Shown here piece by piece: positions 2,429-20,157 of a stretch of DNA of 20,157 nucleotides. Where the stretch lies: positions 1-20,157 of IMG/VR virus record IMGVR_UViG_3300025168_000904; one strand, 5' to 3'. The first letter of the stretch is position 1. Each line of letters begins with the position of its first letter. This DNA comes from a virus. The notes under the pieces were generated by a model, which saw nothing but the letters and a program-made list of their open reading frames with translations, was not told the origin of the DNA and searched no databases. The translations under genes were made by a program, and so were the position numbers.

Positions 2429-3349
2429 ATGTCATATATAACAGATTATCAATATTACGAGAATAGTCAGAATGTACCTACAGATGCAAACTGGGGATCT
2501 TATCAATACATATCTTTAGAAGATATTGTAAATAATTTTATGTTAATGTTTCAAGGTAATAATGAAATAGTAAATAATGTAAACAGATATCAAGTTTTAT
2601 TTCACGCAAAGAGAGGAATTCAAGAGTTGAATTACGATGCAATGAAAGAAATTAAAATATTAGAATTACAAATTTGTGATCAACTTAGATTTGTTTTACC
2701 ACAAGATTATGTAAACTGGGTAAGAATATCTTTAGAGCAAGATGGTATGCTTTACCCTATGACAGAAAATATACAGACTAATTGGAGTGGAGCTTACTTG
2801 CAAGATCATGAGTGTAGAATATTATTTGATATTGATGGTAATGTTTTAAAACCTCATAATTCTTTTTGGGACAAACAAAGATTAGATAGTCAGCAAAAAA
2901 CAATGTATCTTGGGGACGGTCCTTATAGTGGGCAGCAAGGATATTTAGTAGACGGTGCTTGGTACTTTGATTATCAAGTAGGTGCAAGATTTGGTTTAAA
3001 TACAGAAACAGCAAATGTAAACCCTACTTTTAGTATAAATAGAAAAGGTGGTGTAATAAACTTTAATTCAGGAATGGCTGGAAAGTTAGTGGTTTTAGAA
3101 TATGTTTCAGATGGAATGGAAAATGGTGATGACTCCAGCGTTAGTGTAAATAAATTATTTGAAGACTTTATATATGCTTATATAAAGTATGCTATTTTGA
3201 ATGGCCGACATGGAGCACAGGAATATTTAGTTAATAGAGCAAGAAAAGATAAATCTTCTTTACTCCGTAATGCTAAACTAAGATTAAGTAATATACACCC
3301 TGGCAGACTCTTGCAAAACTTAAGAGGTCAGGATAAATGGATAAAATAA
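2429..3349 (+). CDS. Probable second head-tail connector / structural protein, 306 aa
   Basis: The N-terminal half carries a pattern I recall from virion clusters of marine Bacteroidetes phages: ISLEDIVNNFM (28-38), FHAKRGIQELNYD (58-70) and LPQDYVNWVRIS (90-101). This is followed by a beta-rich middle containing Gly-rich turns (residues 140-230), and a basic, helical C-terminus (240-306) with KLFEDFIYAYIKYAIL, NAKLRLSNIHPGRL and a final KWIK. No membrane segment. It begins two bases after the stop of the 317-aa gene and its own stop is one base before the 1764-aa gene, so all three are translationally coupled. A connector or ring protein between portal and tail hub is the best guess from order and pattern; the precise position in the virion is not shown by the sequence. 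Confidence 0.7.
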   Translation: MSYITDYQYYENSQNVPTDANWGSYQYISLEDIVNNFMLMFQGNNEIVNNVNRYQVLFHAKRGIQELNYDAMKEIKILELQICDQLRFVLPQDYVNWVRISLEQDGMLYPMTENIQTNWSGAYLQDHECRILFDIDGNVLKPHNSFWDKQRLDSQQKTMYLGDGPYSGQQGYLVDGAWYFDYQVGARFGLNTETANVNPTFSINRKGGVINFNSGMAGKLVVLEYVSDGMENGDDSSVSVNKLFEDFIYAYIKYAILNGRHGAQEYLVNRARKDKSSLLRNAKLRLSNIHPGRLLQNLRGQDKWIK

Positions 3350-3350
3350 T

Positions 3351-6300
3351 ATGCCTTTAACTTCAACAAATTTTATAGCTGGTAAAATGAATAAGTCTGT
3401 AGATGAAAGACTTATTCCACCAGGAGAGTATATTGATGCTTTAAATGTGCGTTTAGGATCTACTGAAAACACTGAGATTGGAGCGGTAGAAAATTCTTTA
3501 GGTAATACTATTTTAACTCAATTAGAGTTTCAAGGAGTACCTTTAATAGGAAATGTAAGAACTATTGGAGTATATGAAGATGGTATAAACGAAACTCTTT
3601 ATTGGTTTGTTCATAATGAAAATAATCCCAACTCCGTAACTACAGGTGTTGTAGATTTAATTGTTTCTTATAATACTAATTTAGGATCTTTAATTTATCA
3701 TGTAGTTAGCACCTCGGTTTTAAATTTTGATAAAAAATATTTAATAACAGGAGTAAATAAGATTGAAAATTTATTATTTTTTACTGATGATTTAAACCCT
3801 CCAAGAGTTATAAATATAAAATCAGATTATGCATATCCAGGCCCTGGTGCTGTGGATGATGTGTTAGAAGAGGAGGATGTAAGCGTTATTGTTAAGCCTC
3901 CAGGTTATGAAGATTTTGATACTACTGCAGGTCAGGTAGCTCCTTTGGGAGCTCCTTATGTAAAGCCTCGAGTTATTATAGGCCAGGAAAATTATATGGA
4001 AACTCGTTTTCTGTCTTTTGGTTATAGATATAGATATGAGGATGGACAATACAGTGCTACTTCTTTATTTTCTAACCCAGCCTTTCAGCCTTCTCCTTTC
4101 TCTTTAAGTATTCAAAACTATTGGAATCAAGGAATGAAAAACAGATTTAATGGTGCTGATATTTGGTTTTCTACGGGAAGTAAACGAGTAAAGGAAATAG
4201 ATTTATTATATAAACAAAGCACATCTACTGTTATATATGTAATTAAGAGATATAACAAAGAAGAGTTAACATGGGGAGATAATGAATTTCAAACAGTTCT
4301 GTTTGGGAATAGTGAAATTTATACTACATTAGGTTCTGATGAGTTATTAAGATTATACGACAATGTTCCTCGTACTGCTAAAGCACAAACAATAAAAGGT
4401 AATCGTTTGATGTATGGTAATTATGTTGACGGATATGATATTAGATATACTGAAGGTGGGGCAAAGATTCCTATTTCTTATAATGTAACTGCAACAAGCG
4501 GAGAGATAGCAGGTGTAGATTTACCAGATCCTGTTACTTCTAATGGAGTGTATAATTTTGACGGTGTTCATAATGAGCCTGATTCGGTTATCACTTTTGA
4601 TTTATCAGATATTAATCCTGCGGGGGGTGGTCCTATTGAACAAGATACCATTATAAATTTTGGATTTTCTTTACAACAAACTACTGCTACGGTATGTACG
4701 AATGGGACTGGAGGTTTTTGTCCTGGTGGGCCTGCTTTACAAAGTTCTCCTTTTGTTATTCCTATGAATTTTACAGTTCCAGCTGGAGGTTATGCAGATG
4801 TAAATACAATGTTAAATTCTCAAGAATTTAAAGATAGAATAGGAGGAAGTCTTGCTCAAGGTTATACTGGTAATAATGTTGTAAAACCTTTATATCCTTG
4901 TGCTGACAGTTCAACAGGAGGAACCTTAAGTGATAAATTTTACGCTTCTTCTGAGAACCCTATAGCAACTACAGGTCTTGTAATGGTGAGTGGAGGTATA
5001 GGTGGTATCCCTAACGCTCCAGCTACACTTTGTAGTCTTACAGCTTTAGATACAAATCCTTTCCCAACTCCTTGTGCTTCAGTGCCTATAACAAGTGGAA
5101 CTACATTATGTAATCCACAAATTCCTCCATTAGTTCCTCCTGCAACTCTTTGTGTGGCAGGACAATTAACACAAACTGGATTTGATTTTAGTACAGTAGC
5201 AGGTTTAGGGGTGAGTGGTACAGAGATTGTAATAGACACTTTAACAGGATTGACAGCAACTGTTCCTGTTCAAGCAATTGCAGTAGGACAAGATTTTATA
5301 TTAATAACAGATGCAACTGGAGGGGCGGCTACTCTATCAACAAGTGGTGTAGCCTATACAATAGTAAGTGGAGGACCACCTACAACCCCTATATGTTTAA
5401 ATGATGGGTTTGCATACTCTGTTTCAGGTGACACTTTTTCTCTTCAAGCTCCTTGTATTCAGTATTATCAAGCAGACTCAACAGCAACAGGAGTATATTC
5501 TTATGCAATTAGATATTATAACTTTTTAGGGTTTTCTTCTACAGCAACATTTTTAAAAGATGCTGATGCAGCCAGCTTACATTCTAATAGAGATTATGAA
5601 GTAGGAATTGTATATATGGATGGAGAAGGTAGAGCATCTACAGTTCTCACAAGTCAAGATTGTACTGTGTTCTTTGAACCATCTTCTTGTGTTTTAAAAA
5701 ATCAAATACGAGTAACCTTATCAAACCTTGCTCCTTACTGGGCTAAAAAATATAAGTTTGTGGTAAAACCAAGTCAGGGGACTTACGAGACTATTTACTC
5801 TAATTTATTTTATGCTCAAGATGGGACTGCAAAAAATCCTGGAGGGGGACTTCCCGTAGCCGATGTGGAAGATCCAAGTCAAGTGTGGTTTAAGTTAGAT
5901 GGGCAAAATCAAAATATATTAAAAGTAGGAGATGAGTTAATAGTAAAACAAGATACACAAGGTGCTGTTTTTGGAGCACCTAAATCGGTGGTGTTAGCTA
6001 TACAGTCTTATTCAGGTAAGGGTATTACAGATGTATCTTTACCAGGGCTATATATGTTGCTTAAACCTTCAGGATGGACTACAGAAACTATAGCAAACTC
6101 TACTTATTTTAGAGGTCAAAAAAGCGTAAAAAATACGAGTGGGGGTAGTATAGGTGGCTCTTGTATTGATAATTACAATTTAAATGATTCTGCAGGAACA
6201 CCTTATGATCTCCCTGCTGGTTCTTCTGTTAGAATAAAAGCTGCTGCATATAGAGGGGGTAATAATTGTAGAAGAAATATAAGCTACGATAGAACATTTA

Positions 6301-8645
6301 CAGTATCTCAAGATTACAATACTTTCCATCAGTGGGCAGTAGGAGATGATTTAGCAAGTAAGATGGGTACTAATACCTCTGGAACTTCTGGTGTAGAGGG
6401 AATGTCTTTATCATTTGACAATACTTTATATACGAGTGCAAGTTCTGCTTGCTCAAGTAGTGAGTATAATGTAAAGGCAAGTATAAGACAAAATGCAGCG
6501 GGTGGTCAATTTTTTGTATGGCAAGGAGCTATAACTGAATGTTTTGAAGCGAATTATAGTGATTCGGGGTGGTTCCCAGGAAGAGCTCGTTTAGAGATTG
6601 AGGTAACACGAGCAGGTGGAGTTTTTGTTTTTGAAACTGTACCAGGAGATGCTGATCCAAATTTATTTTATGATGCTTCTGAACTTTTAGATATAGAGCC
6701 TGACTTTGTTGGGGGCCCAGGATATCACATGGCTAAAAGAGATTTTGATCCAAGTGGTGGTGCTGGCTCTTATAGTTTATCAGCTGGTAGTCAAGACCAA
6801 ACATCAGGAGGTGCTTCAATGGTAACAGTGTTGGATGCCTATAATTGTTATGTTTTTGGTAATGGAGTAGAAAGTTATAGAGTATATGACAGTCCAGCAG
6901 GTAAATCTTTTAATTTAGGAGAAAGAACTTTAGCAGTATCTAACCAAGACTTTCAAGAGGCAGATAGATTTGCAGGAATGACATATAGTGGGGTTTATAG
7001 TAGTTCAGCTAACAGTAATAACTTAAATGAATTTAATTTAGGTTTATTAAACTTTAAAGATTTAGAGACATCGTTTGGTCCTATTCAAGTTTTATATTCT
7101 CGTGAGACAGATATATTATGTTTACAAGAAGATAGAATATCTTATGTGTTAAATCAAAAAAATGTTATTACAGACTCAACTGGTGGGGGAGCAATAGCTT
7201 CAGTGCCTCAAGTTTTAGGAAGTCAAATAGCAAGAATAGAAGAATATGGTATAAGTTTTAATCCTGAGAGTTTTACTGCTTGGGGGTATGATATGTTTTT
7301 TACAGACACTAAAAGAGGTGCAGTAATAAACTTAAGAGGAGCATCTCAGGGTAGTGATCAACTACAAGTTGTTTCAACTTATGGAATGAATAGTTGGTTT
7401 AGAGATTGTTTTAATGCTCAATTAACTACTCAAAAATTAGGTGCTTATGATCCTTATATGAAAGAGTATGTATTAGGAACTAACTTACAACAAGTTCCTA
7501 CACCTTTAAACGAAGTTCCTTGTGATACTACTATTAGTCAATTTAATAGTACGCAATCAATTACCTATGATGTAGATTTAGGGTTGGTTATTGGTGATGT
7601 TGTTACAGGTATTAATATAAGTTCAGGTACTGTAAGTATATCTATAGAGTGGAATGGTGCTATAGTTGCAAGTGCATCAACTTCAAGTAATACATTATTA
7701 ACCTTTACAAAAACATCTAATACTCCTCAATCGTGTACAGTAACATTAACACCAACAGGACCTTCTCCTATTGTGCCTGCTACATATGATGTTACAGTGA
7801 AGTGCCCTAAAGGACTGCCATTAACGGTTAGACAAATAGTTGTAAACTCTAATAATTATAATGGACAAACTATCCATACTAATTATAACTGGTTTAACGC
7901 AACTAATATTAGTCCTTTTACAGGATTTAATCCAGCAACATTATCTACACCTGATCCAGCTGAATATGCGACTGCTACAGGCACACAGTCATTATTAGCG
8001 TTTCCATATTCTGGATCTTCTGTTACAATGAGAACTCAAAAGTTTGGAACTGATAATTTTGATTTTGATCCTTCTATGCATAAATTTAGAATACTCGCCT
8101 CACCTACTGAGTATTTTGCAAATCCTAATAATCCAACTTCAGCTGAAATAGCAACAGTAGTGGCTGCCGCTCCTATCGTGAGTGGGGCTGTCACGTCTCC
8201 ATCGGCAGGAGAATATCAAGCAATTCAAGTTGGTGTAAATGTATCGGTAACAAATAGTTATTTATATTTAATTTGGGATTTCAGATTAGTTAGTTCAGGA
8301 CAGTTATGCTATTGCTCTAATCCATCAAGTGCTGATGAGGTTTGTTGTAATTGTCAGGTTCCTTGTGATAAAGTATACTTTGGTCCTGTTACTTCAACTT
8401 TTTCACAAGTATGTCAGACAGAGGTTAATTCACCTGGAGCTAACAGTACGTGGGGCTTCCAAGGTAGTGGAGGATTACCAGTTGTAGGAAATGTAATATT
8501 TACAAGTACATCATGTAATCCTGCAAATGGATATCCGCCAACAGGTTTTTATATAATAGATCCTAATGTAACACCAACTTTATCTCCAAAACAATGGGTA
8601 GAAATTGGACCTAACGGAGTAGTATTACAAGCAGGAACGTGTTAA
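3351..8645 (+). CDS. Giant tail hub/stabilisation-type protein, 1764 aa
   Basis: N-terminal residues 1-60 (FIAGKMNKSVDERLIPPGEY, then DALNVRLGSTE, then GAVENSLGNT) resemble the opening of podovirus tail hub/stabilisation proteins (P22 gp10 / T7 gp12 role: closing the connector and forming the nozzle). Core landmarks follow: FGYRYRYEDGQYSATS near 222-237, a segment beginning VKEIDLLYKQS near 280, MYGNYVDGY at 354-362, and YMDGEGRASTVLTS at 755-768. Residues 601-673 hold a beta module similar to that inserted in the 317-aa connector. A jelly-roll-like stretch lies near 1405-1490. The C-terminus is cysteine-rich (C1653, C1655, C1665, C1666, C1668, C1672, C1688) and ends in a module with NGVV and a terminal Cys that recurs in the next gene. 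It is far longer than P22 gp10 or T7 gp12, so hub and receptor-proximal functions may be fused. Start ATG follows a TAA by one base. Confidence 0.72.
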   Translation: MPLTSTNFIAGKMNKSVDERLIPPGEYIDALNVRLGSTENTEIGAVENSLGNTILTQLEFQGVPLIGNVRTIGVYEDGINETLYWFVHNENNPNSVTTGVVDLIVSYNTNLGSLIYHVVSTSVLNFDKKYLITGVNKIENLLFFTDDLNPPRVINIKSDYAYPGPGAVDDVLEEEDVSVIVKPPGYEDFDTTAGQVAPLGAPYVKPRVIIGQENYMETRFLSFGYRYRYEDGQYSATSLFSNPAFQPSPFSLSIQNYWNQGMKNRFNGADIWFSTGSKRVKEIDLLYKQSTSTVIYVIKRYNKEELTWGDNEFQTVLFGNSEIYTTLGSDELLRLYDNVPRTAKAQTIKGNRLMYGNYVDGYDIRYTEGGAKIPISYNVTATSGEIAGVDLPDPVTSNGVYNFDGVHNEPDSVITFDLSDINPAGGGPIEQDTIINFGFSLQQTTATVCTNGTGGFCPGGPALQSSPFVIPMNFTVPAGGYADVNTMLNSQEFKDRIGGSLAQGYTGNNVVKPLYPCADSSTGGTLSDKFYASSENPIATTGLVMVSGGIGGIPNAPATLCSLTALDTNPFPTPCASVPITSGTTLCNPQIPPLVPPATLCVAGQLTQTGFDFSTVAGLGVSGTEIVIDTLTGLTATVPVQAIAVGQDFILITDATGGAATLSTSGVAYTIVSGGPPTTPICLNDGFAYSVSGDTFSLQAPCIQYYQADSTATGVYSYAIRYYNFLGFSSTATFLKDADAASLHSNRDYEVGIVYMDGEGRASTVLTSQDCTVFFEPSSCVLKNQIRVTLSNLAPYWAKKYKFVVKPSQGTYETIYSNLFYAQDGTAKNPGGGLPVADVEDPSQVWFKLDGQNQNILKVGDELIVKQDTQGAVFGAPKSVVLAIQSYSGKGITDVSLPGLYMLLKPSGWTTETIANSTYFRGQKSVKNTSGGSIGGSCIDNYNLNDSAGTPYDLPAGSSVRIKAAAYRGGNNCRRNISYDRTFTVSQDYNTFHQWAVGDDLASKMGTNTSGTSGVEGMSLSFDNTLYTSASSACSSSEYNVKASIRQNAAGGQFFVWQGAITECFEANYSDSGWFPGRARLEIEVTRAGGVFVFETVPGDADPNLFYDASELLDIEPDFVGGPGYHMAKRDFDPSGGAGSYSLSAGSQDQTSGGASMVTVLDAYNCYVFGNGVESYRVYDSPAGKSFNLGERTLAVSNQDFQEADRFAGMTYSGVYSSSANSNNLNEFNLGLLNFKDLETSFGPIQVLYSRETDILCLQEDRISYVLNQKNVITDSTGGGAIASVPQVLGSQIARIEEYGISFNPESFTAWGYDMFFTDTKRGAVINLRGASQGSDQLQVVSTYGMNSWFRDCFNAQLTTQKLGAYDPYMKEYVLGTNLQQVPTPLNEVPCDTTISQFNSTQSITYDVDLGLVIGDVVTGINISSGTVSISIEWNGAIVASASTSSNTLLTFTKTSNTPQSCTVTLTPTGPSPIVPATYDVTVKCPKGLPLTVRQIVVNSNNYNGQTIHTNYNWFNATNISPFTGFNPATLSTPDPAEYATATGTQSLLAFPYSGSSVTMRTQKFGTDNFDFDPSMHKFRILASPTEYFANPNNPTSAEIATVVAAAPIVSGAVTSPSAGEYQAIQVGVNVSVTNSYLYLIWDFRLVSSGQLCYCSNPSSADEVCCNCQVPCDKVYFGPVTSTFSQVCQTEVNSPGANSTWGFQGSGGLPVVGNVIFTSTSCNPANGYPPTGFYIIDPNVTPTLSPKQWVEIGPNGVVLQAGTC

Positions 8646-9680: not shown

Positions 9681-10541
9681 ATGTCAAATCCATTAAATCC
9701 AAATACTTTATCTTACAGTGAAGATGTAAAAGGATGGCCATCTTTTTATTCTTTTTTACCTGATTACATGATGGGGATGAATGGATTTTTTTATTCTTGG
9801 AATGGAGGGAATTTATACAGACACAATACTAATCCTTTAAGAAATAATTATTATGGTGTTCAGTATAGTTCTACTATTCAGTCTGTATTTAATATGGAAC
9901 CTATGACAATTAAGTTATTTAAAACAATGTCATATGAAAGTAATGATGCTTGGAATTGCACATCCTTATTTACTGATTTAAGCACAGGATCTATTCCTGG
10001 ATCTGGAGTTCCTTTACAAACATGGTTTGTACAAAAAGAAGGAGAATGGTTTTCGTTCCTAAGAGAAAACGCTACAACCACTAATTTTAAAGATAGATCT
10101 TCTAATGGTATAGGAGCCTCTACTAATTTAACAGGGCCTGTAGCCGCAGTAGTAATTGAATTTGGATTACAAGATATTGGAAGTATTGTTACTGTTGGAG
10201 ATAGAGTTTTTTCAACTAACCCTCCTAATGCCCCTGTTTTTGTAGGAGCAGTAATTAATATAGTGAGACAATCTACTACAGATATTGCAACAGGAGTAGT
10301 AACACCAGCGTCAATTACAGTAGATACTGTAGGGCCTTATCCTAATGCAGTTAATCCTTTACCTTATCCTTTCCCTGGTACAGTTCCTCCTGTAGGAGAC
10401 TTTATTTCAATTATAAAAGATGCAATTGCAGGATCAAATGGAGCACGTGGTTACTTTATGAATTTTACGCTAAAAAATGACAATACAAGTACAGTAGAAT
10501 TATTTTCTGTAGGTAGTAGTGTGATGAAATCATATCCATAG
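9681..10541 (+). CDS. Conserved phage virion-cluster protein of unknown function, 286 aa
   Basis: Its N-terminus has a block rich in aromatics (YSEDVKGWPSFYSFLPDYM at residues 12-30, then GFFYSWNGGNLYRHN at 35-49) that I recall as a recurrent pattern in structural clusters of marine phages, without a known function. Residues 75-135 contain KLFKTMSYE and WFVQKEGEWFSFLREN. The second half (155-245) is beta-rich with VTVGDRVF, a Pro-rich loop (NPLPYPFPGTVPPVGDF at 224-240) and a return to strands ending in FSVGSSVMKSYP. No membrane segment, one cysteine only, so it is unlike the preceding cysteine-rich protein. Its place after the hub suggests a tail component. It is probably the last gene of the unit begun at 1447, since a new promoter follows its TAG stop within eight bases; no terminator is seen there. 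Confidence 0.72.
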   Translation: MSNPLNPNTLSYSEDVKGWPSFYSFLPDYMMGMNGFFYSWNGGNLYRHNTNPLRNNYYGVQYSSTIQSVFNMEPMTIKLFKTMSYESNDAWNCTSLFTDLSTGSIPGSGVPLQTWFVQKEGEWFSFLRENATTTNFKDRSSNGIGASTNLTGPVAAVVIEFGLQDIGSIVTVGDRVFSTNPPNAPVFVGAVINIVRQSTTDIATGVVTPASITVDTVGPYPNAVNPLPYPFPGTVPPVGDFISIIKDAIAGSNGARGYFMNFTLKNDNTSTVELFSVGSSVMKSYP

Positions 10542-10561: not shown

Positions 10562-10972
10562 ATGAAATTAAATATAAGACCACTAAAAGAAAAAGATTAT
10601 GAAGACATTCTTTCTGGATGGTGGAAAGATTGGAGATGGACTCCTCCTTCAAAAGATTTTTTACCTGAAGACGGTATGGGTGGTTTTATTGTTTATGATG
10701 GAGATACACCAGTTTGTGCAGGGTTTATGTATATAACTAATTCAAAAGCAACGTGGTGTGATTGGATTATCTCTAACTTAAAATATAAAGATAGACAAAA
10801 AAGAAAAGAAGCTTTAGAATTATTAGTAAAAACCATAAGTAACAAGGCGGAAGATTTAGGTAAAAAATATGTATACGCATTAATTAAAAATAAACCATTG
10901 ATTAACGTATATAAAAAAATAGGTTTTGTGGAGGGAAGTACCTACACACATGAAATGATTAAAACAATATAA
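10562..10972 (+). CDS. GNAT-family N-acetyltransferase of the phage virion cluster, 136 aa
   Basis: A single compact GNAT fold: strand-helix opening (LNIRPLKEKDYEDIL, 3-17), a Trp-rich helix (WWKDWRW, 20-26), central strands (GGFIVYDGDTPVCAGFMYIT, 40-59), the WCDWIISN strand (65-72) and the closing motif NVYKKIGFVEG (115-125), where the Tyr and the GF pair are typical of the acetyl-CoA end of the fold. The expected pyrophosphate-binding motif A, Q/R-x-x-G-x-G/A, is degenerate here: the place after the central strand reads D-R-Q-K-R-K-E-A (77-84), with no glycine. The fold call is good; whether it acetylates anything, and the substrate, cannot be told. The gene opens the third transcription unit and is followed one base later by the first ejection-protein candidate, suggesting a role linked to virion proteins. 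Confidence 0.82.
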   Translation: MKLNIRPLKEKDYEDILSGWWKDWRWTPPSKDFLPEDGMGGFIVYDGDTPVCAGFMYITNSKATWCDWIISNLKYKDRQKRKEALELLVKTISNKAEDLGKKYVYALIKNKPLINVYKKIGFVEGSTYTHEMIKTI

Positions 10973-10973
10973 T

Positions 10974-11759
10974 ATGGCAGTAGTAACAGCAGCAGTAGTA
11001 GGTATAGCAGCAGCAGGAGCTTCAGCGGTGCAAGGATTTAAGGCAGCAGCTGATGCAAAAAATGCAGCAGAAAAGGCAGATAAAGCAGCAGCAAAAGCAA
11101 TGAGTGAAGCTAAGGCTAAGGCACAAGTAGATATGTATGCTGGTCTTAATGTTCCTTTAGATGCATATGAAGCAGAATTTGAGAATCAAATAGCTGGTCA
11201 AAAACAAGCAGTAGAGGCACTACAAGAAGGAGACTCAAGAGCTTTAGCGGCAGGAGTAGGAAGAGTAGGTGCAGCACAAACTGCGGCAGGAGAACAAACT
11301 CGTATTGCTATGGGTGAAGAGATATCTGACCTTAATAAAATGAAGGCTGATTCTAAAGATGCTATAAACCAGCAGCTTATAACTATGGATGTATCTGCAG
11401 CAAAAGAGCAGAACCAAAGGATGAGAGATGCTGAAGCGGCCAGAGCTCAAGGTATTTCTCAAGGTATTCAAGGTGTAGCGGGAGTAGTTCAAGGTGTAGG
11501 AGATTTAGCCCCTTTGTATGGACAGAGCGGTGCAGATAGAAGAGGTTCTAAATTAGCTAAACAATATGCCGATCAAAAACCTGCAGGCATGACTGATGCT
11601 CAATGGGCGGCTAAATTAGGGGAGCAAGGTTATAGTAGAGAAGAATATATGTCCATTAAGAATCAAGGAAATAAAGATGCTTTCTGGACAGGAGATGGAT
11701 TTGGATGGGGAGAACTGGAAAGTGCAACTGATGTTTACGATCCTAATAAACAATATTAA
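10974..11759 (+). CDS. Probable internal virion/ejection protein, Ala/Gly-rich, 261 aa
   Basis: The protein opens with a small-residue hydrophobic stretch (residues 4-22, VTAAVVGIAAAGASAVQGF) long enough to cross or insert into a membrane, followed by an Ala/Lys-rich helix (25-52) and a long Ala/Glu/Gln helical region (63-160) with coiled-coil character. A second Gly/Val-rich amphipathic segment (161-178) follows, then a polar C-terminal region. This make-up, a glycine/alanine membrane-active N-terminus plus helical body, is that of T7 gp14-like internal core proteins that form part of the DNA-ejection channel. Position agrees: it precedes two larger candidates in the order small, medium, very large, as gp14, gp15 and gp16 do. 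No enzymatic motif. The TAATATG junction couples it to the acetyltransferase gene. Function is inferred from composition and order. Confidence 0.7.
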   Translation: MAVVTAAVVGIAAAGASAVQGFKAAADAKNAAEKADKAAAKAMSEAKAKAQVDMYAGLNVPLDAYEAEFENQIAGQKQAVEALQEGDSRALAAGVGRVGAAQTAAGEQTRIAMGEEISDLNKMKADSKDAINQQLITMDVSAAKEQNQRMRDAEAARAQGISQGIQGVAGVVQGVGDLAPLYGQSGADRRGSKLAKQYADQKPAGMTDAQWAAKLGEQGYSREEYMSIKNQGNKDAFWTGDGFGWGELESATDVYDPNKQY

Positions 11760-11761
11760 AC

Positions 11762-13795
11762 ATGGCAAACCAATTTACTAAAGCAAAAATAGACTTTGAT
11801 GTTTATCAAAAAGCGGATCCATCTTCACAGATTAATTTTGGAGAAGAGGCAAAGGTTATATCTGATGCTTTTAAAAATGTAGCAACAGAGAGAGAAGGAA
11901 AGAAAGCTGCACTGGAAAAAGCTTTCAAAGACCAACAGGCTGCGTTAAATGATTTAGGAGAATATGATAACCCTACCGCACAACAGGTAGTTATGAATGC
12001 AGGACAGGATGGAGCTAACAAGTTGTTAGACATGAAGAACATGATGAAGAGAGGTTTAGTAAAACCTGCTGATGTTACTATGTTTCAACAAAACCAATTA
12101 AATGGTTTTAATTTATTGAAGAAAAACATGGGTAACTTTGATAAAACTTTTCAAGAGTATACCACAAGATTACAAGAAAATATGGAAGGGAGTGACTTAT
12201 CTCAAGGTGCTCCAGCAGAACAATGGTTAGCAAAACAATTAGAAGGGTTTGCTAATATGAATAATATCTCAGTACAGACAGATCCTGAAACAGGTAATGT
12301 TTCTATGTTAAGATTAAATGAGGACGGAACAGTTGATAAAAATTCAAGTGCTACACTGAATAGACTTACTCTTTTAATGAAGCAAAAAGTAAATAACTTC
12401 GATCCTAACAAAGGATTAGAAAGAGCAAAGGCAATATCAGGAAAGGTTGTACAACAACGAATAGATTCTAAGCATGGTTTAAATGCTAAAATTACAACAG
12501 AGGAAAGAAGCAGAATGGAAACAGAATACTATAATGGTACAGAGGGGCAAAAATATTTAGATGCGGAGGCTCAGTCAATGTTAGCCGATCCGTATGATAT
12601 GCAGTCGTTTATGTTAAACTCATCCTTAACAACTGAGGATGGAACTGCATTTGAAATAGGAGACCAGCAGGCATTTGATAAGTGGAATGCAGAGCATCAA
12701 GGTAATGAAGAGAACAACCCTTATCTTGTAATGGAGTTTGGAGCAGACAATCAATATAACGCTCAGTTTACTGATGCCCAAAAAGAGATTGCTTTAGATG
12801 CTATGAAGACTAAGATAACAGGAACTTTAGATTATACTAAAGAAGAAGACGTAAAAGGTTTAGTTCAAAAAAGAGCTGAGACATCTGCAGAGACAAAATC
12901 AAAAGGAGATAAAGAAAATGCTGGAGTATATCTTAAAAATGTAGACATGGTTGTGTCAGGAACTGCTGCTGAATCTGATGCTGGTGCTCAAAACTTAATT
13001 GACGATATTAATAAAAATAATCCTAATGCTCCACGATTAACAAATATTGATAGAAACGTAGAGCTGTTAAATGAAGAACAACAAGAAGTAGAGTTAAATA
13101 CATTTAAAGATGCTAACCCTAATGCTACCGCTCAAGAATTAGAAGCAGAGAAAAACAGATTAGCTACTGAGGGTAAAATCACAGACTTTACTATTAAAGT
13201 AGACGGGCAACAAGATAGAGTTATAGATGCTTATAATGATGATGGTACTCTAAAAAGTGGTCAGCAACTTAAGAGAGAAATCTATGAGAAGATTACTCCA
13301 AAGGGAGCTACTAAGTATGATATTGCAGAGAAAAATTATGATGGCGATCTATCAAGAGGTGCGGGTAATACATCAGCTGGAGGTGAAGGAGTGAAAGATA
13401 AGATTGTTTATAAGAGAATGAATATAACTAATACCAATGGTGACGAGGTTACTCCTGGTGATTATTTATATACAGAATTAGGTGGCTCTTTAAATTCTTA
13501 TGCAGATGAGCCTGCACAAGTAGAAGAAGAGTTTAATAAACTTATGGATATGGATGAGATAATGCCACGTGGTCTTGAAGGTGGTGGTAGTTTAAAGATT
13601 AATGCGGCAGGTGACGGTGTCTTTACTATTGGAGGACAAGAGTTTATATGGTCGGATATTTATGGAGATGGGGATAATGTACAAGATATTGTGGTCTTTA
13701 TGCAAGACTCTATTGAGACAGCTGTAAATAATCAAAACTCAGGAACTACAGGTAGTGGTGGATCATCTAAAGGAGCTGGGAGTAAATACAACTAA
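11762..13795 (+). CDS. Probable internal virion protein, helical, 677 aa
   Basis: Not recognised as a named family. Residues 1-170 are almost wholly helical, with charged heptad-like stretches (KNVATEREGKKAALEKAFKD near 37-56). The middle (170-500) alternates helices with Asp/Asn/Gly-rich turns, and the C-terminal 150 residues are more beta-like, ending in a Gly/Ser-rich flexible tail (about 660-677). It has no membrane segment, very few hydrophobic runs and is acidic. Its size and place between the 261-aa membrane-active protein and the giant multidomain protein match the gp15 position in T7-like ejection cassettes, which is the basis for the role; sequence similarity to gp15 is not apparent to me. 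Start ATGGC at 11762 is two bases after the previous stop. A DGD triplet in IYGDGDNVQD near the C-terminus lies in no polymerase-like context. Confidence 0.65.
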   Translation: MANQFTKAKIDFDVYQKADPSSQINFGEEAKVISDAFKNVATEREGKKAALEKAFKDQQAALNDLGEYDNPTAQQVVMNAGQDGANKLLDMKNMMKRGLVKPADVTMFQQNQLNGFNLLKKNMGNFDKTFQEYTTRLQENMEGSDLSQGAPAEQWLAKQLEGFANMNNISVQTDPETGNVSMLRLNEDGTVDKNSSATLNRLTLLMKQKVNNFDPNKGLERAKAISGKVVQQRIDSKHGLNAKITTEERSRMETEYYNGTEGQKYLDAEAQSMLADPYDMQSFMLNSSLTTEDGTAFEIGDQQAFDKWNAEHQGNEENNPYLVMEFGADNQYNAQFTDAQKEIALDAMKTKITGTLDYTKEEDVKGLVQKRAETSAETKSKGDKENAGVYLKNVDMVVSGTAAESDAGAQNLIDDINKNNPNAPRLTNIDRNVELLNEEQQEVELNTFKDANPNATAQELEAEKNRLATEGKITDFTIKVDGQQDRVIDAYNDDGTLKSGQQLKREIYEKITPKGATKYDIAEKNYDGDLSRGAGNTSAGGEGVKDKIVYKRMNITNTNGDEVTPGDYLYTELGGSLNSYADEPAQVEEEFNKLMDMDEIMPRGLEGGGSLKINAAGDGVFTIGGQEFIWSDIYGDGDNVQDIVVFMQDSIETAVNNQNSGTTGSGGSSKGAGSKYN

Positions 13796-13802
13796 ATAAT
13801 AT

Positions 13803-16800
13803 ATGAACGAAAAAGCAATCAATGACGGGTACAAATATTTTGTAGAGACAGGATACCAAGGTACTATAGATGATTATAAAACACTCCTTAATACTAATGG
13901 AGATGCTGTTAATGATACATATAAATACTTTGTCAATACAGGTTATAAAGGAACTGTTAATGACTTTGTAACTTTATTTGGTATTGGTGAAAAAAAAAAT
14001 CCCGTTGGCAATGGTACTGGAGAAGAGGAAGTTATGGTATCAAGTATCGAGGACATTCAAGAACCTGGCTCATCGGAGCCTTCTCTTCAGCCAAGTAATG
14101 AACAAGTTGATAGTGCGATAACTGAAGGTGCCCCTGAATTTGGTGTTGAAGAAACTGAAGAAGAAACCATAAATATAGGACAGGGCAACCAAGTAAATCC
14201 TGAAGATTTAATAAAGCCACGATCAGTTAAAGGTTATGAGCCTGAAAGTTGGGGTGGATTAAAAAGCCTTATAACTCAGTCTACACAAGAGGAGCGTAGC
14301 GATCCTAATTACAAAGGATTATTTAAAGTAGATACCACTGAAGAGGTTGTTGAGCAGCCAAGTGATTTCTTTGATGAGTCTCTGCAACAGATTACACCAG
14401 ACCTTATTTCTAAGACAGAAGAGAATGTAGTTCCTTTAATGAACTATCATTTTAATGACTATGGGTTTACTTTTACTGAAGCAGATTTTACAGGTGATGA
14501 GATGACAGTGTCTGCCGCTAATGGAGAAACATTAAAAGTAGAATTAGATGCTTTGTTTTTTACGGGCAAATATTCTGATGAGTTAAAACAATTTTTACAA
14601 GATAATAAAGAAGAGAGCACTAAGTTACACCAATTAGAAGCTGGCTATGTAAAGAAACAACAAAAGATTCAAGGAGAGAAAGATGTAGAGAATATGGTTA
14701 AGGATTTAACTACTGAAACCAACGTTCTTAGAGATGAGTACAGTGAATACTTAATGGCTAAAAACTTTTATGATAAAAATAATTTATCTGACATGGATCC
14801 TAACGAGGTGGTATATGTAGAAGGTCCTGACGGGCAGCAAATGGCTACAACTCCTAAAGTTCTTGCAGAAAAAATAGCTTTAGCCTCTCAAAATATTGCA
14901 ATATCTAAAAAGAATTTAGCAGTAAAAGGAAAAGAATTAGATGAGGTTGTAGGCGGATGGTACGAGATGCGTAGTGAGCAAAGTAGTATAGGGGGTTTTG
15001 CTTATAATGCTTTATTAGATGGTTCCGCTCGTATAGGAACTCAAGTGATGAATAGGATGATTGATGTGGGTACTTATATGGCACCTGCAGAAGGAGGCTT
15101 AATGTCTCAGAATGAGTATAGAACCAAAGTGTTAACTAAAGCAAAAGAAGCTGGGTTATTAGGAGACACTTATACGGAAGAAAGAATACAAGAAATTATT
15201 TCTAATGATGAAGAGTATGAAAGATTTTTAGAGTTAATAGAAAAAACTCCAGGAACTACTACAGAAATTAAATCAGCAGGATCTATAAAAGACGGTACAT
15301 CTGCTTCTACTCGAAAAGTAACTACAACTTTATTAGAAGATATAGAATCTAAAATATTAGACGAGTTAAGAAAAGAAATAAAGTACGATGTAAAGCCTGG
15401 AGAAAATGTGTACGCTAATCCGTTCTCTCAATTTGCTAACGATCCAAAGTATGATGGTAAAGATGGCATGTTAGAAATGTCACGTAGAGGATTGAGGTAC
15501 GGGTTAGGTATGGAGGAGACTACTGAGGAGGCTACTCAAGAAGCTAAAAAAGGTTTTTGGGGAGGTGCTCTAATAGGAGTAACTGAGTCTATCCCAGCTA
15601 TGTTAGGCCCTGCTCCTGTTAGGATATTTAATATGATAAGTCAAGTAGAAGACCATATTAATGAGGAGATGGAAAATGATCCTGACTTTGCAGATATAAG
15701 TGAAGCTGAGAAGACTATGTTTACTGTGCCTTTAGGTATAGTGGTAGGGGTATTAGAAAACCTTGGGTTTAGAAATGCTATTGCTCAGAAAGGTTTAGCA
15801 AGTAAAATATTATTACTGGCACTAAAGAAAAGTGGTAAAGATATTACAGGGCAAAGCTTTAGACAAGTAGTAAAGAAAGAGGTTAACAACCTTATGGGAC
15901 AAGGACTTCTGTTAGTTACAGCTTCTGGATTAGCGGAGTTTGAGACGGGGCTTGCACAAGAGATTGCAGATATAGGTTTTAAAGAAGCTTATAATTATAA
16001 TAAAGAAAAAGAAATGTTTAGAACTCCAGAGTCTTTTGGTGATGGGGTAAAGCAAGTAATCAGAGCAGGACTACAGGAAGCAGTGGGAGGATTTGTAATT
16101 GGTACACCATCAGCTATAATACAGACAGCAACAGCTGGAGATTTCACTGGTTTAGGAGATGGTGTTTTTGAGATGTATGAGCAGGTTCATAAGGAGCCTG
16201 TAGTAAGAGACGCATTTATTCAAAGAACTAAAGAGCGTATTTTAAATGGTGATATAACTAAGAAAGAGGGACAGCTTGAAATTGATATGTATGACCAAGT
16301 AAATGGGGTGATGGATCAAATACCTTCGGATCTTCCTACTAATCAAAAGAAAGAACTACTTGGTAATCTTTTAAGACAACAAGAACTACAGGATGATATA
16401 GATAAATATAATAAGCTACTAACTAAAAGACAACAACAAGAGTTATTAGATTTAGAGAATGATGTAGAAAGAATAGTTCGATCTGGTAATACACAAAACC
16501 AACAAGAAGCACAAGAGACTGAGTTAAATACACAGGCAATAAACGAATTAAAAGAGGAGGGAGTAGAGAACCCAACTCCTGAACAAATTAAAACTAAAAG
16601 AGATGCCATTCAAAAGTCAAGCCCAGAGAAAGTGGATGTACAAGAATCTACCGAAAGTAGCCAAGAAGTGGGAGATGGAAACACCCAAGGGCAGTCTACC
16701 CAAGAGAGCCAGGACAGTCAAACAGATCTTGACACGCAGACGCAAGAGGAAGTAGATGATTTAACATCTATATTTAATGAGCAAACAGGTATGCAGGAGC

Positions 16801-19800
16801 AAGAAGGAACTCCTGAACAACCAACTCGTAGAGCTGTAGTACAAAACGAAGAAGATGGAACTATAGATGTTATAGTTACTGACGGTAAAAATGAAGTGTA
16901 TGAGGGAACAAGTGTTTCAGATAATGTTCATGTGACACAACCTAAAAATGCTAAGCCTGAAAATAGTGTTGATATTTCTTTTGATAGTTTATTAAATAAA
17001 GCTAAGAATGCAGGTAAGGCTATAGTTAAATTAATTCCTGACTTAGACATTGTAGTACACGCATCAGAAAATAATTATAATAAAGCAGTAAGCAGTGAGA
17101 ACGCAGGAACACGTGGTACTTTTAATCTTAATACTAATACCATTCATATTAATTCTTCTAAAGCTAATACACGAACAGTAGCTCATGAGGTTATGCATGC
17201 TGTACTATTAAAGAAGTTAGGAGTCAATGCAGACTTTAGTAAAGTTACAAAGCGAATGTTAGATGCTGTAGCAAAAGCAATGCCTAAAGATTCTAATTTG
17301 AAAGAAGTTATAGAAGACTTTGCAAAAGATTATAAGATTAATGACCAGAATGAAGAGCAAGTGTCAGAGTTGTTTGGATATCTTTCAGCTGCATATACGC
17401 AGTTAGATGGGCCTACTAAAAATATAGTAAAGAGGTGGTTACAGAAAGCAGCTAAAGCTGTTGGTTTACCTGTTAACATAACAGAGTTCACTAAGGAAGA
17501 GGCTGATATGATTGAGTTCTTTAATACAGTATCAGGCAAAGTAAGAGAGGGAGTTGAAGTTACAGAAGGAGATATAGAAGTTATTCCTGGAGAGGTAGTA
17601 GAAGATGCTGAAGGTCCTGTGCCTGAAAATATTCCTGATGATGGTCCGTCTATTGACTTAGAGGTAACAGAAAAAAACCAAAAAGATAGGGGTGGTATTG
17701 ATATGAGTAAAATAAAACGTGGTTCTATTAACGATCTTAGTGGAGTGAATGCTTTTGTTTTTGCTGCAGACCAAGCTACTTATGGTAATATAGAAAGCCC
17801 ATCAGGCTTAGAGTTTATGTTTAACGGAGGATACCTATATCCTTATGGCTCGGAGTCTCAAGGAAGTAATGCTGTTTGGGTATTTTCTGCTGAATCAGCA
17901 GCTAATAAAGTTTTAAATAAAGCTAAAGAAAGTGATGGTGTGGGACTTGTTATGTCTCAGGCTTCAGATGGTATTACAGGTAATCTACAATTTTATGATT
18001 TCTTAAATGCAGAGATTGAAAATGCAATAGAAAAGGGTGCATCACCAAAAGAAATGGTAGATTATATAAATAAAAAACTTGCTGATAAAACTAAAGATGG
18101 AGGAGATGGTAAAATTACTACATATTTAAAAAAGAATGGATTACCAACACAAATTAAAAATTACCAAGAGATACAAGATTTATTTAAAACTACAAATTTT
18201 GAAGTAAGAGGTCAGTTTGCAAGAAAATTTATGAGTGCAGAGTCATATAATAAGTTTGGCATCTATCCTTTTGAAGCGAAAAAAACTATTGATGGGGATA
18301 TAGAGAGTGTAGTTAATGATCCATCTCTTAAGAAAATTCAATATGGAGATATAATTTCAGCCATAGAGTTTGACCAAGATGGTAAACCTTTTAAATTAAA
18401 TGAAGGTGATCCTGGATATCATCCAGCATACCCATGGGCATTGCCTGGTAAACCTATGATGGTATTTAATAATGCAGTAGATGTTAGAAAGGTTTATCCA
18501 AAAGCAAAACCAGTTTCTGGTAATCAAACTCTTTTAGGTAAAAGAACGAAACCTGTAGCTGCTCGTTCTGCAATGGGTGGACAGTATGTTGCTAAGGTTC
18601 CTAAAGATATTAATGTAGAGGGTGCACCAATAAAAGAAAAAGCACAGAAGGTTACATTTAAAATAGAGAAGCAAAGAGTATATAAAGACGATGCCTCTGG
18701 AGTTACATTCTTAACTAAAGGATATGGTGGTAGGTTTATTAATATACCAAGGAAAGCAATTACTATAAAAGATATTGATGGTGTAAGCCAATACCAGAAA
18801 CCTTTAGTTGAGGTTACTATGGATAAAAAGGTTTACGATAAGCAAGATGAAACAAGACAATACAAAGATGGAAAAGAATCATTTGTAAATGAATTAGAGA
18901 CTATCAGAGGTTTTGAAACGGTAAGTCCTAATGAAAAAGCACAAGTAATTACAGAGCAAGATATGGAAATATTATACCCAGAGAAAGCTCAGAAAAGAAG
19001 TTTTGATTTTACTCAAGCCGAAGTAGACGCAGCCTTAAATAGTGATACAAAATCAGTAGAAGTTATAGCTAAAGGATTACAACCGAAGAAAGGTGAAAAG
19101 GTTGGAGTTAGGTTAAATCTAAATGTATTAAAAAATAAAGGGATTCCTATTCAAACTGTACATCAAGGACAGGTTAGCGATAAATATAAAAGAGTAGATG
19201 GTATATCAGGATTCTTTAAGGGTACCGCAATAAACTATGCTCCAGCTGTAACATTAAAAGATGTGTACCTCAATGTTCATCAAGAAGGTGTATATAAGAT
19301 AAAGGAGGGTTACACTCATAAAACTCCTATAGCTTCAGTTGATGGACTTTACCAAGACGTGTCTCTTGCTGACACTAACTTTGATGGTGTAGAAATTAGG
19401 TTTAATCCTATGAGAGGTGGTTTGTTTGTGACAGCTGAGGGCAACCGTCCAGTTAGATCTGTAAAAGAGGCTACTATTGTTGGACACAGAGTGTATGGAA
19501 GAGGTAAGATTGAATACTTTACAGAAGCAAATAAACCAAAGAAATTTGTTCCTGATGCAAAATGGTTAAGTAAAAATAAAAAGATAAAGAAAAGTGAGAA
19601 AGCACAACTCCCTGATGGTTATTTTATAAAGGAAACAGGTAGAGGAGAATTTAAATTAATGAAGGGAATTAGAAGTGCGGGAGATATGTCTATTGCTGAA
19701 TTGCAAACATCTACACCAAGTGTATCTCAAGTTTTTATTAGACAATTTGATCAAGGAAAAGGTTTAGCTCCTGATATGTATAGAGAGATAGCTAAAGCAA

Positions 19801-20157
19801 TGGAGGCTAAAGGCAAGACCTTAGTGTCCTCTAAGTATACTAACGATGCTTCACAAGGGGTATGGAAAAGATTAGTTAAAGATGGTGATGCAATAGTTAT
19901 AGGTGGTCGTATTGATGCCGAAGGTGTGTTTCGCCCACAATACTCTATGCGTAATGAGGCTTCTGAAAAAGCACAGAAAGCTTCAGTAGATAAACTGGCT
20001 AAGATGTATGAGATGAAAAAGAATGGTGTTATCTTTAATAAGCCAGGAGTTAATAGAGTAGCTTTAGAAGACTGGGCAAACTCATTAGGGTTCACAGTAA
20101 AGCCAACAAGAGGAGATATAGGTGAGCTTACTGGATTTAAATTAATAAAACCAGATG
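13803..20157 (+). CDS. Giant multidomain (polyvalent-type) virion protein with metallopeptidase domain, at least 2118 aa, 3' end outside window
   Basis: One uninterrupted frame from ATG 13803 to the right edge. Domains in order: two tandem repeats (residues 10-29 and 40-59); acidic Glu/Ser/Pro linker (63-130); helical region (180-560); hydrophobic or amphipathic segments near 584-603, 640-652, 700-711 and 760-774, two of them next to EETTEEATQEA- and EFETGLAQE-type helices; Gln/Glu/Lys-rich coiled coil and linker (845-985); a zincin-like metallopeptidase (1056-1239) with H1128-E-V-M-H1132 and a downstream E1185-Q-V-S-E1189 as possible third ligand; a globular domain with FNGGYLYPYG (1340-1349); another with VGVRLNLNVLKN (1767-1778) and FNPMRGGLFV (1867-1876); and a GNAT-like domain (1949-2050) with Q1984-G-K-G-L-A1989 fitting acetyl-CoA motif Q/R-x-x-G-x-G/A. 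It is probably packaged in the capsid and ejected with the DNA (T7 gp16 position), delivering enzymes to the host. Role is inference. Confidence 0.8.
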   Translation, partial: MNEKAINDGYKYFVETGYQGTIDDYKTLLNTNGDAVNDTYKYFVNTGYKGTVNDFVTLFGIGEKKNPVGNGTGEEEVMVSSIEDIQEPGSSEPSLQPSNEQVDSAITEGAPEFGVEETEEETINIGQGNQVNPEDLIKPRSVKGYEPESWGGLKSLITQSTQEERSDPNYKGLFKVDTTEEVVEQPSDFFDESLQQITPDLISKTEENVVPLMNYHFNDYGFTFTEADFTGDEMTVSAANGETLKVELDALFFTGKYSDELKQFLQDNKEESTKLHQLEAGYVKKQQKIQGEKDVENMVKDLTTETNVLRDEYSEYLMAKNFYDKNNLSDMDPNEVVYVEGPDGQQMATTPKVLAEKIALASQNIAISKKNLAVKGKELDEVVGGWYEMRSEQSSIGGFAYNALLDGSARIGTQVMNRMIDVGTYMAPAEGGLMSQNEYRTKVLTKAKEAGLLGDTYTEERIQEIISNDEEYERFLELIEKTPGTTTEIKSAGSIKDGTSASTRKVTTTLLEDIESKILDELRKEIKYDVKPGENVYANPFSQFANDPKYDGKDGMLEMSRRGLRYGLGMEETTEEATQEAKKGFWGGALIGVTESIPAMLGPAPVRIFNMISQVEDHINEEMENDPDFADISEAEKTMFTVPLGIVVGVLENLGFRNAIAQKGLASKILLLALKKSGKDITGQSFRQVVKKEVNNLMGQGLLLVTASGLAEFETGLAQEIADIGFKEAYNYNKEKEMFRTPESFGDGVKQVIRAGLQEAVGGFVIGTPSAIIQTATAGDFTGLGDGVFEMYEQVHKEPVVRDAFIQRTKERILNGDITKKEGQLEIDMYDQVNGVMDQIPSDLPTNQKKELLGNLLRQQELQDDIDKYNKLLTKRQQQELLDLENDVERIVRSGNTQNQQEAQETELNTQAINELKEEGVENPTPEQIKTKRDAIQKSSPEKVDVQESTESSQEVGDGNTQGQSTQESQDSQTDLDTQTQEEVDDLTSIFNEQTGMQEQEGTPEQPTRRAVVQNEEDGTIDVIVTDGKNEVYEGTSVSDNVHVTQPKNAKPENSVDISFDSLLNKAKNAGKAIVKLIPDLDIVVHASENNYNKAVSSENAGTRGTFNLNTNTIHINSSKANTRTVAHEVMHAVLLKKLGVNADFSKVTKRMLDAVAKAMPKDSNLKEVIEDFAKDYKINDQNEEQVSELFGYLSAAYTQLDGPTKNIVKRWLQKAAKAVGLPVNITEFTKEEADMIEFFNTVSGKVREGVEVTEGDIEVIPGEVVEDAEGPVPENIPDDGPSIDLEVTEKNQKDRGGIDMSKIKRGSINDLSGVNAFVFAADQATYGNIESPSGLEFMFNGGYLYPYGSESQGSNAVWVFSAESAANKVLNKAKESDGVGLVMSQASDGITGNLQFYDFLNAEIENAIEKGASPKEMVDYINKKLADKTKDGGDGKITTYLKKNGLPTQIKNYQEIQDLFKTTNFEVRGQFARKFMSAESYNKFGIYPFEAKKTIDGDIESVVNDPSLKKIQYGDIISAIEFDQDGKPFKLNEGDPGYHPAYPWALPGKPMMVFNNAVDVRKVYPKAKPVSGNQTLLGKRTKPVAARSAMGGQYVAKVPKDINVEGAPIKEKAQKVTFKIEKQRVYKDDASGVTFLTKGYGGRFINIPRKAITIKDIDGVSQYQKPLVEVTMDKKVYDKQDETRQYKDGKESFVNELETIRGFETVSPNEKAQVITEQDMEILYPEKAQKRSFDFTQAEVDAALNSDTKSVEVIAKGLQPKKGEKVGVRLNLNVLKNKGIPIQTVHQGQVSDKYKRVDGISGFFKGTAINYAPAVTLKDVYLNVHQEGVYKIKEGYTHKTPIASVDGLYQDVSLADTNFDGVEIRFNPMRGGLFVTAEGNRPVRSVKEATIVGHRVYGRGKIEYFTEANKPKKFVPDAKWLSKNKKIKKSEKAQLPDGYFIKETGRGEFKLMKGIRSAGDMSIAELQTSTPSVSQVFIRQFDQGKGLAPDMYREIAKAMEAKGKTLVSSKYTNDASQGVWKRLVKDGDAIVIGGRIDAEGVFRPQYSMRNEASEKAQKASVDKLAKMYEMKKNGVIFNKPGVNRVALEDWANSLGFTVKPTRGDIGELTGFKLIKPD
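13830..13979 (+). repeat. Tandem 30-codon repeat at the N-terminus of the giant protein
   Basis: Residues 10-29 and 40-59 align without gaps, 13 of 20 positions identical: Y-K-Y-F-V-x-T-G-Y-x-G-T-x-x-D-[YF]-x-T-L-x. The period is 30 residues (90 bases) and the second copy is followed directly by an acidic linker. The codons differ at many third positions, so the duplication is old and kept at protein level. Confidence 0.8.

Follow-up and report, generated by a model that had tools for sequence, protein, structure and literature searches.

Lineage-specific separator peptides at the module junctions of a giant putative cargo protein in a crAss-like phage: a candidate virion polyprotein

We analyzed a stretch of viral DNA of 20,157 nucleotides (IMG/VR record IMGVR_UViG_3300025168_000904, positions 1 to 20,157; hereafter the window) and in particular the giant gene at its right end. 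The encoded protein repeats a short peptide of the type EKxQ at the junctions between its modules, and related phages follow the same plan with separator peptides of their own. On balance, and with a little more than even confidence, we read this protein from its sequence as a virion polyprotein, in which a metallopeptidase (MP) within the chain would cut at lineage-specific sites and free exchangeable modules. Comparison of the relatives shows modular exchange, separators at the junctions, conservation of the peptide, agreement of the separators within most proteins and an association with one type of MP. Relative to a preliminary description of the window, made from the letters alone, the new part is the repeated EKxQ at junctions and the lineage-specific separator, as they appear in the aligned proteins.

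Organization of the giant gene

The frame starts with an ATG at 13803 and is free of stop codons for 2118 codons, up to the right edge of the window. One scan with the window protein found 7 related IMG/VR loci, which excludes a chance open reading frame (ORF). Where the gene is intact in relatives it is a single ORF, with 3224 residues in locus L003, 3210 in L016 (found later than the seven-locus scan), 2843 in L009 and 2816 in L007. L003 is the nearest full relative and its best segment is 93% identical to the window protein. Window residue 2118 aligns with residue 2020 of L003, which would leave about 1,200 residues beyond the edge and bring the complete protein to about 3,320; the window covers approximately the first two thirds of the gene. 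In L004 the frame is broken in the contig (17901-17923), leaving pieces of 2640 and 449 residues in overlapping frames. The features of the gene in the window are listed below.

13803-20157, + strand: giant gene for the candidate cargo polyprotein, 5' part; 2118 codons, open at the window edge
13803-16994, + strand: conserved N part, residues 1-1064; aligned in relatives, with a tandem repeat near the start
16995-17579, + strand: zincin-like metallopeptidase (MP), residues 1065-1259; HEVMH at 17184-17198, profile matches in 80 proteins
17670-17681, + strand: separator 0, EKNQ; EKxQ in 7/7 proteins compared
17688-18602, + strand: module M-A, residues 1296-1600; relatives have other slot-1 modules here
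18636-18647, + strand: separator EKAQ, residue 1612
18648-18932, + strand: module M-D, residues 1616-1710; not found in L003, L007, L008, L009 and L016
18933-18944, + strand: separator EKAQ, residue 1711
18981-18992, + strand: separator EKAQ, residue 1727
18993-19595, + strand: module M-E, residues 1731-1931; Phage_L5_gp82 at 1798-1898
19596-19607, + strand: separator EKAQ, residue 1932
19608-19964, + strand: module M-F, GNAT-like, residues 1936-2054; weak FR47 matches
19965-19976, + strand: separator EKAQ, residue 2055
19977-20156, + strand: module M-G, a small domain from residue 2059 that runs to the window edge; 28 proteins by profile

Pairwise alignment shows that a conserved N part with MP and a conserved, mostly helical C part, which begins past the window, flank variable content, here called the payload. 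Window residues 1400-2042 are almost wholly absent from L007 and L009, the GNAT-like module is missing in L004, and in L008 M-A is joined straight to M-G. Slot 1 after MP holds M-A, M-B or M-C depending on the phage. M-A and M-C are remotely alike (hhalign probability 94%); a homology of M-B to M-A was also considered and dropped, as no profile link was obtained. M-E matches Pfam Phage_L5_gp82 (PF25735) at 31.9 bits, above the cut-off of 27. For M-F, FR47 (GNAT) matches are weak and occur in 3/5 homologues (best E 0.0022); in the window M-F scores 16.3 bits against a cut-off of 22.1, and PDB entry 1tiq is reached at 0.064. A relative of M-F in L038 (residues 792-896) is placed before the metallopeptidase, not after it. 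PDB-sequence searches with the GNAT, MP, the C part, M-A and the 677-residue neighbor of the giant protein gave nothing firm.

The preliminary description had seen here a giant multi-enzyme virion protein, and a large multi-module protein at the position of a virion or ejection protein is borne out. The open frame of more than 2118 codons is confirmed, as are the two motifs it named: HExxH occurs as HEVMH at residue 1128 (nt 17184-17198), and Q-x-x-G-x-A as QGKGLA at residues 1984-1989 (hand-counted), within the GNAT-like segment. Its two unnamed domains do exist, but the count rises to at least four (M-A, M-D, M-E and M-G), besides the GNAT-like M-F. The GNAT and metallopeptidase assignments both stay below Pfam cut-offs, and the proposed membrane-active segments are thin: a single 19-residue stretch (638-656) in the window part of the protein has a mean hydropathy above 1.4. 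Judged from profiles and the exchange pattern, several disparate domains in one chain (MP, M-A, M-D, M-E, M-F and M-G) would make this a polyvalent protein.

Separators at the junctions

EKAQ occurs five times in the window protein, six times each in L003, L004 and L016 and three times each in L007, L008 and L009, where 0.06-0.09 copies are expected (0.06 for the window). All seven proteins of this EKAQ clade have EKxQ at the border that follows MP, in the form EKNQ in the window. In several pairs, the aligned segment that follows a module gain or loss starts within about one residue of EKAQ (L003/window 1613/1711, L003/L008 1957/1558, L016/L007 1937/1525); in pairs with L009 it starts 13-15 residues earlier than EKAQ. 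The five separators in the modeled stretch all lie in segments of the predicted structure with a predicted local distance difference test (pLDDT) score below 50, which make up 247/896 residues. L003 has separator pairs 16 and 8 residues apart (1613-1632 and 2029-2040). Such spacers are too short to fold, and the pairs are possibly scars of lost modules.

For EKAQ outside the giant gene, we scanned ORFs of at least 100 residues in large parts of four phage contigs, G001-G004. G002 and G004 each hold one copy, both at the same position in an ORF of 811 residues, a putative portal by its size and place only. None was found in the scanned parts of G001 and G003, where two G003 hits were in the gene's own 3' piece.

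A scan with an MP profile confirmed 120 relatives; we kept 80, including 8 that were already known. In their payloads the plan recurs with different peptides: EKNQ in L033 and L034; RQQK in L053, L070, L076 and L092; RKQ or RRQ in L040, L049, L055, L061 and L090; and KTQA in L035, L066 and L095. The separators across the relatives are mostly of the type [KR]xQ, usually uniform within a protein and different between lineages. As one would look for in a protease-processed polyprotein, like sites recur at module borders, with exceptions. Our literature searches, with passages of PMC5512222, PMC7886860 and PMC12633501 consulted, pointed to no report of such separators.

To compare regions, we scanned 56 payloads, 56 N parts and 24 C parts for the most over-represented 4-mer of each, and typed the motif by eye. 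Among winners with p<1e-5, the [KR]xQ type made up 21/27 in payloads (7 of the 21 belonging to the EKAQ clade), 1/27 in N parts and 0/12 in C parts. The p-value alone did not discriminate, as 27/56 N parts also had such winners; it was the motif type that separated the regions. A later scan with the C part confirmed 142 relatives, of which 80 were kept. These gave 72 new loci, 57 of them on unused contigs and 49 usable; they belong to the same family as the discovery set and some are close to earlier contigs. At p<1e-4, winners of type [KR]xQ in new contigs with MP (n=42) were 16/32 in payloads, 0/39 in N parts and 1/40 in C parts, and in those without MP (n=7) they were 0/7, 0/6 and 0/6. The EKAQ counts, the internal N and C controls and the new contigs argue against a chance origin of the separators.

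The two peptides that flank M-G are more alike within than between proteins: with 12 representatives (L003 standing for the window, whose right flank is cut) none of 200,000 permutations reached the observed value, and with nine, one per separator lineage, 26 of 200,000 did.

The metallopeptidase and its tie to the separators

In an alignment of 62 rows, the HExxH and a later Glu are conserved in at least 90%, as in a zincin-like metallopeptidase. Our model of residues 1040-1935 has a mean pLDDT of 62, which is middling, and MP lies mostly at 70-88. In VIA, the structure neighbors of MP are the peptidase domains of clostridial collagenases (Z 5.0-6.2) and two stretches of the anthrax lethal factor chain, residues 42-258 (Z 6.3-6.8) and 581-778 (Z 4.7-5.8). 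M-A has several YTH domains and PH1033 as neighbors (Z 4.4-5.5), no more than a lead on a middling model. In the search with predicted structures that had been proposed as a check, Foldseek found no PDB match at E<=0.001 for the module stretch.

The border of the C part offers a test that is tied to the protease. In the discovery set, [KR]xQ stood at this border in 28/30 proteins with MP vs 0/2 without (Fisher 0.012; background 222/937), and in the new contigs in 37/42 with MP vs 1/7 without (Fisher 2e-4; background 265/1529 C-part windows). The seven non-MP proteins include two near pairs, L138/L167 and L146/L151, and so do not all count as independent. In six of the seven, another HExxH (HEFGH, HEYGH, HEMGH or HELQH) precedes the C part by about 160-240 residues; in L153 the stretch before the C part holds no HExxH.

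Trade of a module between lineages

M-D of the window and of L044 share 83% DNA identity over 267 bases and 77% protein identity. Over MP, window and L044 are 47% identical, and the C parts of L003 and L044 40%. M-D is far more alike than MP or the C part, so it has moved between lineages. At its left border each copy carries the separator of its own phage, RQQK in L044 and EKAQ in the window, with homology fading at the border; the right border in L044 is without a separator.

What the separators may be

The separators could be DNA-level recombination joints, with a peptide that has no role and a protein that stays uncut. We consider this unlikely. Several of the gains and losses above do fall on EKAQ, there are direct repeats of 11-12 bp (GARAAAGCWCAR), and the separators of one protein have a synonymous codon identity of 0.68 vs 0.54 expected, so some copying at the DNA level is likely. 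Within the EKAQ clade we compared the codons of four orthologous junctions, with 72 pairs per position, and the pair differences (nonsynonymous/synonymous) were 0/39 at E, 0/6 at K and 0/6 at Q. E, K and Q thus never change, with 0/51 differences nonsynonymous in total, whereas the x position (23 nonsynonymous, 0 synonymous) and the junction flanks (259 nonsynonymous and 38 synonymous of 576) change freely. The peptide type is uniform within most proteins despite different codons, differs by lineage and goes with one MP type. From this comparison, we take the conserved entity at the junctions to be the peptide, despite some DNA copying. If the peptide is a cleavage site, the enzyme might be another protease, from head maturation or from the host, and not the MP of the same chain, which we judge quite improbable. 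The sites of one phage would also stay alike if cleaved in trans, and the activity of MP itself is only predicted. Against this, the scanned parts of the four contigs hold EKAQ almost nowhere but in the giant protein, a distribution unlike that of general head-protease sites and one that speaks against a general head protease; and the separators track the HEVMHA-type MP, not relatives with other HExxH types. A docking or unfolding signal for the packaging or ejection machinery would likewise need a phage-specific, uniform peptide at accessible linkers, but an uncut signal of this kind leaves the tie of the motif to one metallopeptidase type unexplained, and we regard it as very unlikely.

Several points weigh against a virion polyprotein cut by its own MP. 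No cleavage product has been observed. N4 vRNAP, which has a similar metallopeptidase domain, is packaged unprocessed according to the part of PMC5512222 that treats it. The border motif is absent in 5/42 of the new MP proteins and present in 1/7 without MP, and some separators fall outside [KR]xQ (KTE in L084, PEPRRE in L088). The density of [KR]xQ, a poor statistic, is only 1.5-fold up in payloads (9.7 vs 6.4 per 1000). L044 and L081 are exceptions to the agreement of M-G flanks, and the other flank tests are weak, the own flank being best in 3/13 for M-B (p=0.016), 3/9 for the L040 type (p=0.044) and 2/5 for M-A/C (p=0.17). The counted proteins are related throughout, so the p-values are too small. 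The synonymous identity given above belongs on this side too, as does the failure of an N-part profile trained without Cellulophaga phage phi18:3 to match its protein gp123 (see below).

We nevertheless favor the polyprotein, and we infer its packaging, cutting, cutting enzyme, timing and module activities as follows. One chain would be translated and packed in the particle with other cargo. The cargo would leave with the DNA or ahead of it, the latter as proposed for crAss001 cargo (PMC10172136). MP would then cut at the separators, in cis or between neighbors, in the particle or after entry. The freed N and C parts would serve ejection, and the freed modules would act on the host. In the preliminary description the protein acts as a single chain, but the peptides at its junctions suggest a chain made to be cut up. 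As each phage has its own separator, a newly gained module would be functional only with the resident peptide at its borders. A further idea, which we hold tentatively, is that of a self-cutting cargo polyprotein with a private cleavage code, in which the protease and separator co-evolve, the border peptide acts as a plug standard and modules are tradable between phages, the borders of each phage's copy being in its own code.

Genomic neighborhood

The neighborhood of the giant gene is, from its muzzle families, a crAss-like podovirus tail module.

1473-2426, + strand: virion structural protein, ring-like by position only; PHROG 14543 8e-37
2429-3349, + strand: virion structural protein, ring-like by position only; PHROG 13977 4e-53
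3351-8645, + strand: crAss-like muzzle protein; Pfam crAss_MUZ (PF25731) 6e-10, 38.3 bits vs a cut-off of 27; PHROG 14478 1e-204
9681-10541, + strand: separate ORF with the muzzle C-terminal domain; Pfam crAss_MUZ_C (PF25729) 1.5e-12
10974-11759, + strand: small virion or cargo protein with a hydrophobic N terminus; PHROG 13764 4e-6 and hydropathy
11762-13795, + strand: 677-residue cargo protein just upstream of the giant gene; same place in relatives

crAss_MUZ and crAss_MUZ_C are both above cut-off, a muzzle being a feature of Crassvirales-like phages. The preliminary description had put T7-like ejection genes upstream; we found no T7-like sequence, and the tail is crAss-like. The muzzle seems split over 3351-8645 and 9681-10541, with a 331-residue orphan ORF between. 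A stand-alone GNAT-like ORF (10562-10972; PHROG 17252 8.5e-42, Acetyltransf_3 0.0005, under cut-off) lies between the muzzle C-domain and the cargo genes, and in phage ctfjg026 an ORF annotated as an acetyltransferase subunit has the same position. The 677-residue protein has same-position relatives in L003, L007, L009 and L016 (28-65% identical), and showed no Pfam match above cut-off, no PHROG and no firm PDB-sequence relative. The size order of three neighboring genes (261, 677 and giant) resembles that of the T7 core genes. A scan of genome contigs gave two weak Chitinimonas matches and nothing else.

Relatives of the muzzle gene occur in 87 phage records, including Flavobacterium, Cellulophaga, Tenacibaculum and Maribacter phages. 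The arrangement of the block is broadly like that of phi18:3, and also of phages elemo, Gundel and ctfjg026. The last gene of the block in phi18:3 encodes gp123, the positional counterpart of the giant protein, whose annotation reads 'based on experimental MS/MS proteomics analysis'. BLAST links it to the giant protein only through Gundel and elemo (7e-14, 4e-10). As this link is indirect, packaging of the window protein is likely but inferred. We found no virion proteomics for elemo or Gundel in the available parts of PMC7077304 and PMC8776804.

Payload families and comparison with known systems

At Pfam E<=0.01, 24 payloads gave methyltransferase (4), L5_gp82 (3) and SAM lyase, NlpC/P60, FtsK gamma and DUF3293 (1 each), among others. 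The 28 post-MP stretches of the group with no match to the C part gave LPD23 (7), DUF7178 (4), ART-PolyVal (3), DUF6782 (2), Kinase-PolyVal (1) and GNAT (1). The window protein has no PolyVal or LPD domain at Pfam E<=1. By family name only, the payloads fit counter-defense and host-takeover cargo. Delivery of host-modifying activities at infection, as the preliminary description proposed, is in line with such cargo, the matches (ART-PolyVal, Kinase-PolyVal, methyltransferase, SAM lyase) being those of related payloads. The payload of L104 (10601-13345) has repeats of about twenty residues; inspection by eye also shows a segment like NlpC/P60 that follows an RQQK separator. The C termini of the giant proteins have lineage-specific short repeats, of NPM type in L003 and L034 and RIF/AIF type in L007 and L009, perhaps a binding tail.

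The comparison with polyvalent proteins made in the preliminary description was right. Like those described in PMC5512222, this is a large, probably virion-linked multidomain protein with an HExxH zincin, and its relatives carry ART-PolyVal, Kinase-PolyVal and LPD23. Iyer et al. 2017 (PMC5512222) predicted, from P1 DdrB, that the metallopeptidase processes polyvalent proteins into units. The passages of that paper that we draw on name no site; here probable cut sites are visible, lineage-specific and tied to the MP type.

N4 vRNAP (gp50) is described in the sections of PMC12633501 that we use as an ejected giant with a likely membrane-spanning N part, an HExxH subdomain and a helical C part of about 1,100 residues. 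Foldseek of our C-part model (L003 residues 2042-3178, pLDDT 69) against N4 structure 9pnr was non-significant (E 0.34), and unlike N4 vRNAP, three full-length relatives had no RNAP family in Pfam and PHROG scans. The C-part model found no PDB entry at E<=0.001 with Foldseek. In BFVD, 74 proteins of phages reach E<=0.001, and several of them bear the name ART-PolyVal or large polyvalent protein. Its VIA neighbors are weak: core proteins of phages E1004 (Z 7.2), PhiM1 (6.5) and T7 (6.0), none at 8 or above. Unrelated helical proteins in the same list reach Z 6.1-6.5, so the T7-core likeness may be mere common arrangement. We found no sequence similarity to T7 gp15 or gp16. Of the likeness to T7 gp16 drawn earlier, what stands is this weak fold match of the C part (Z 6-7), which lies outside the window.

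crAss001 likewise has a muzzle tail, and large cargo proteins are found in its virions; its cargo comprises gp45-gp47, gp49 and gp50, with gp47 at 262 kDa and gp50 at 277 kDa (Bayfield et al. 2023, PMC10172136). In a comparison by family scans only, the giant protein and this cargo had no Pfam or PHROG family in common. Among nearer phages, elemo gp18 (Flavobacterium), Gundel gp74 (Tenacibaculum), phi18:3 gp123 and the counterpart in ctfjg026 occupy the same place in the structural block. The MP region is shared with elemo gp18 (E 2e-29), which has no [KR]xQ among its top two repeated 4-mers, and single candidate RQQK and RMQK sites after MP, near residues 2079 and 2302. A C-part profile trained without Gundel gp74 and ctfjg026 matches both (2e-76 and 1e-86). 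The MP profile does not reach Gundel, ctfjg026 or phi18:3, and none of these three has [KR]xQ in its top two repeated 4-mers.

Implications

The prediction of self-processing from 2017 came, in the text of PMC5512222 cited here, without cut sites, and the separators name candidate sites residue by residue in dozens of phages, which puts the prediction within reach of ordinary biochemistry. They allow giant proteins to be divided in silico, where each interval is a candidate effector or anti-defense domain, and many of these belong to no family. A natural series for following how a protease and its site change together would come from the match of separator to protease type. If the idea of a private cleavage code is true, these phages would have a DNA-phage analogue of viral polyprotein processing, with which the set of anti-host tools could be changed within one gene.

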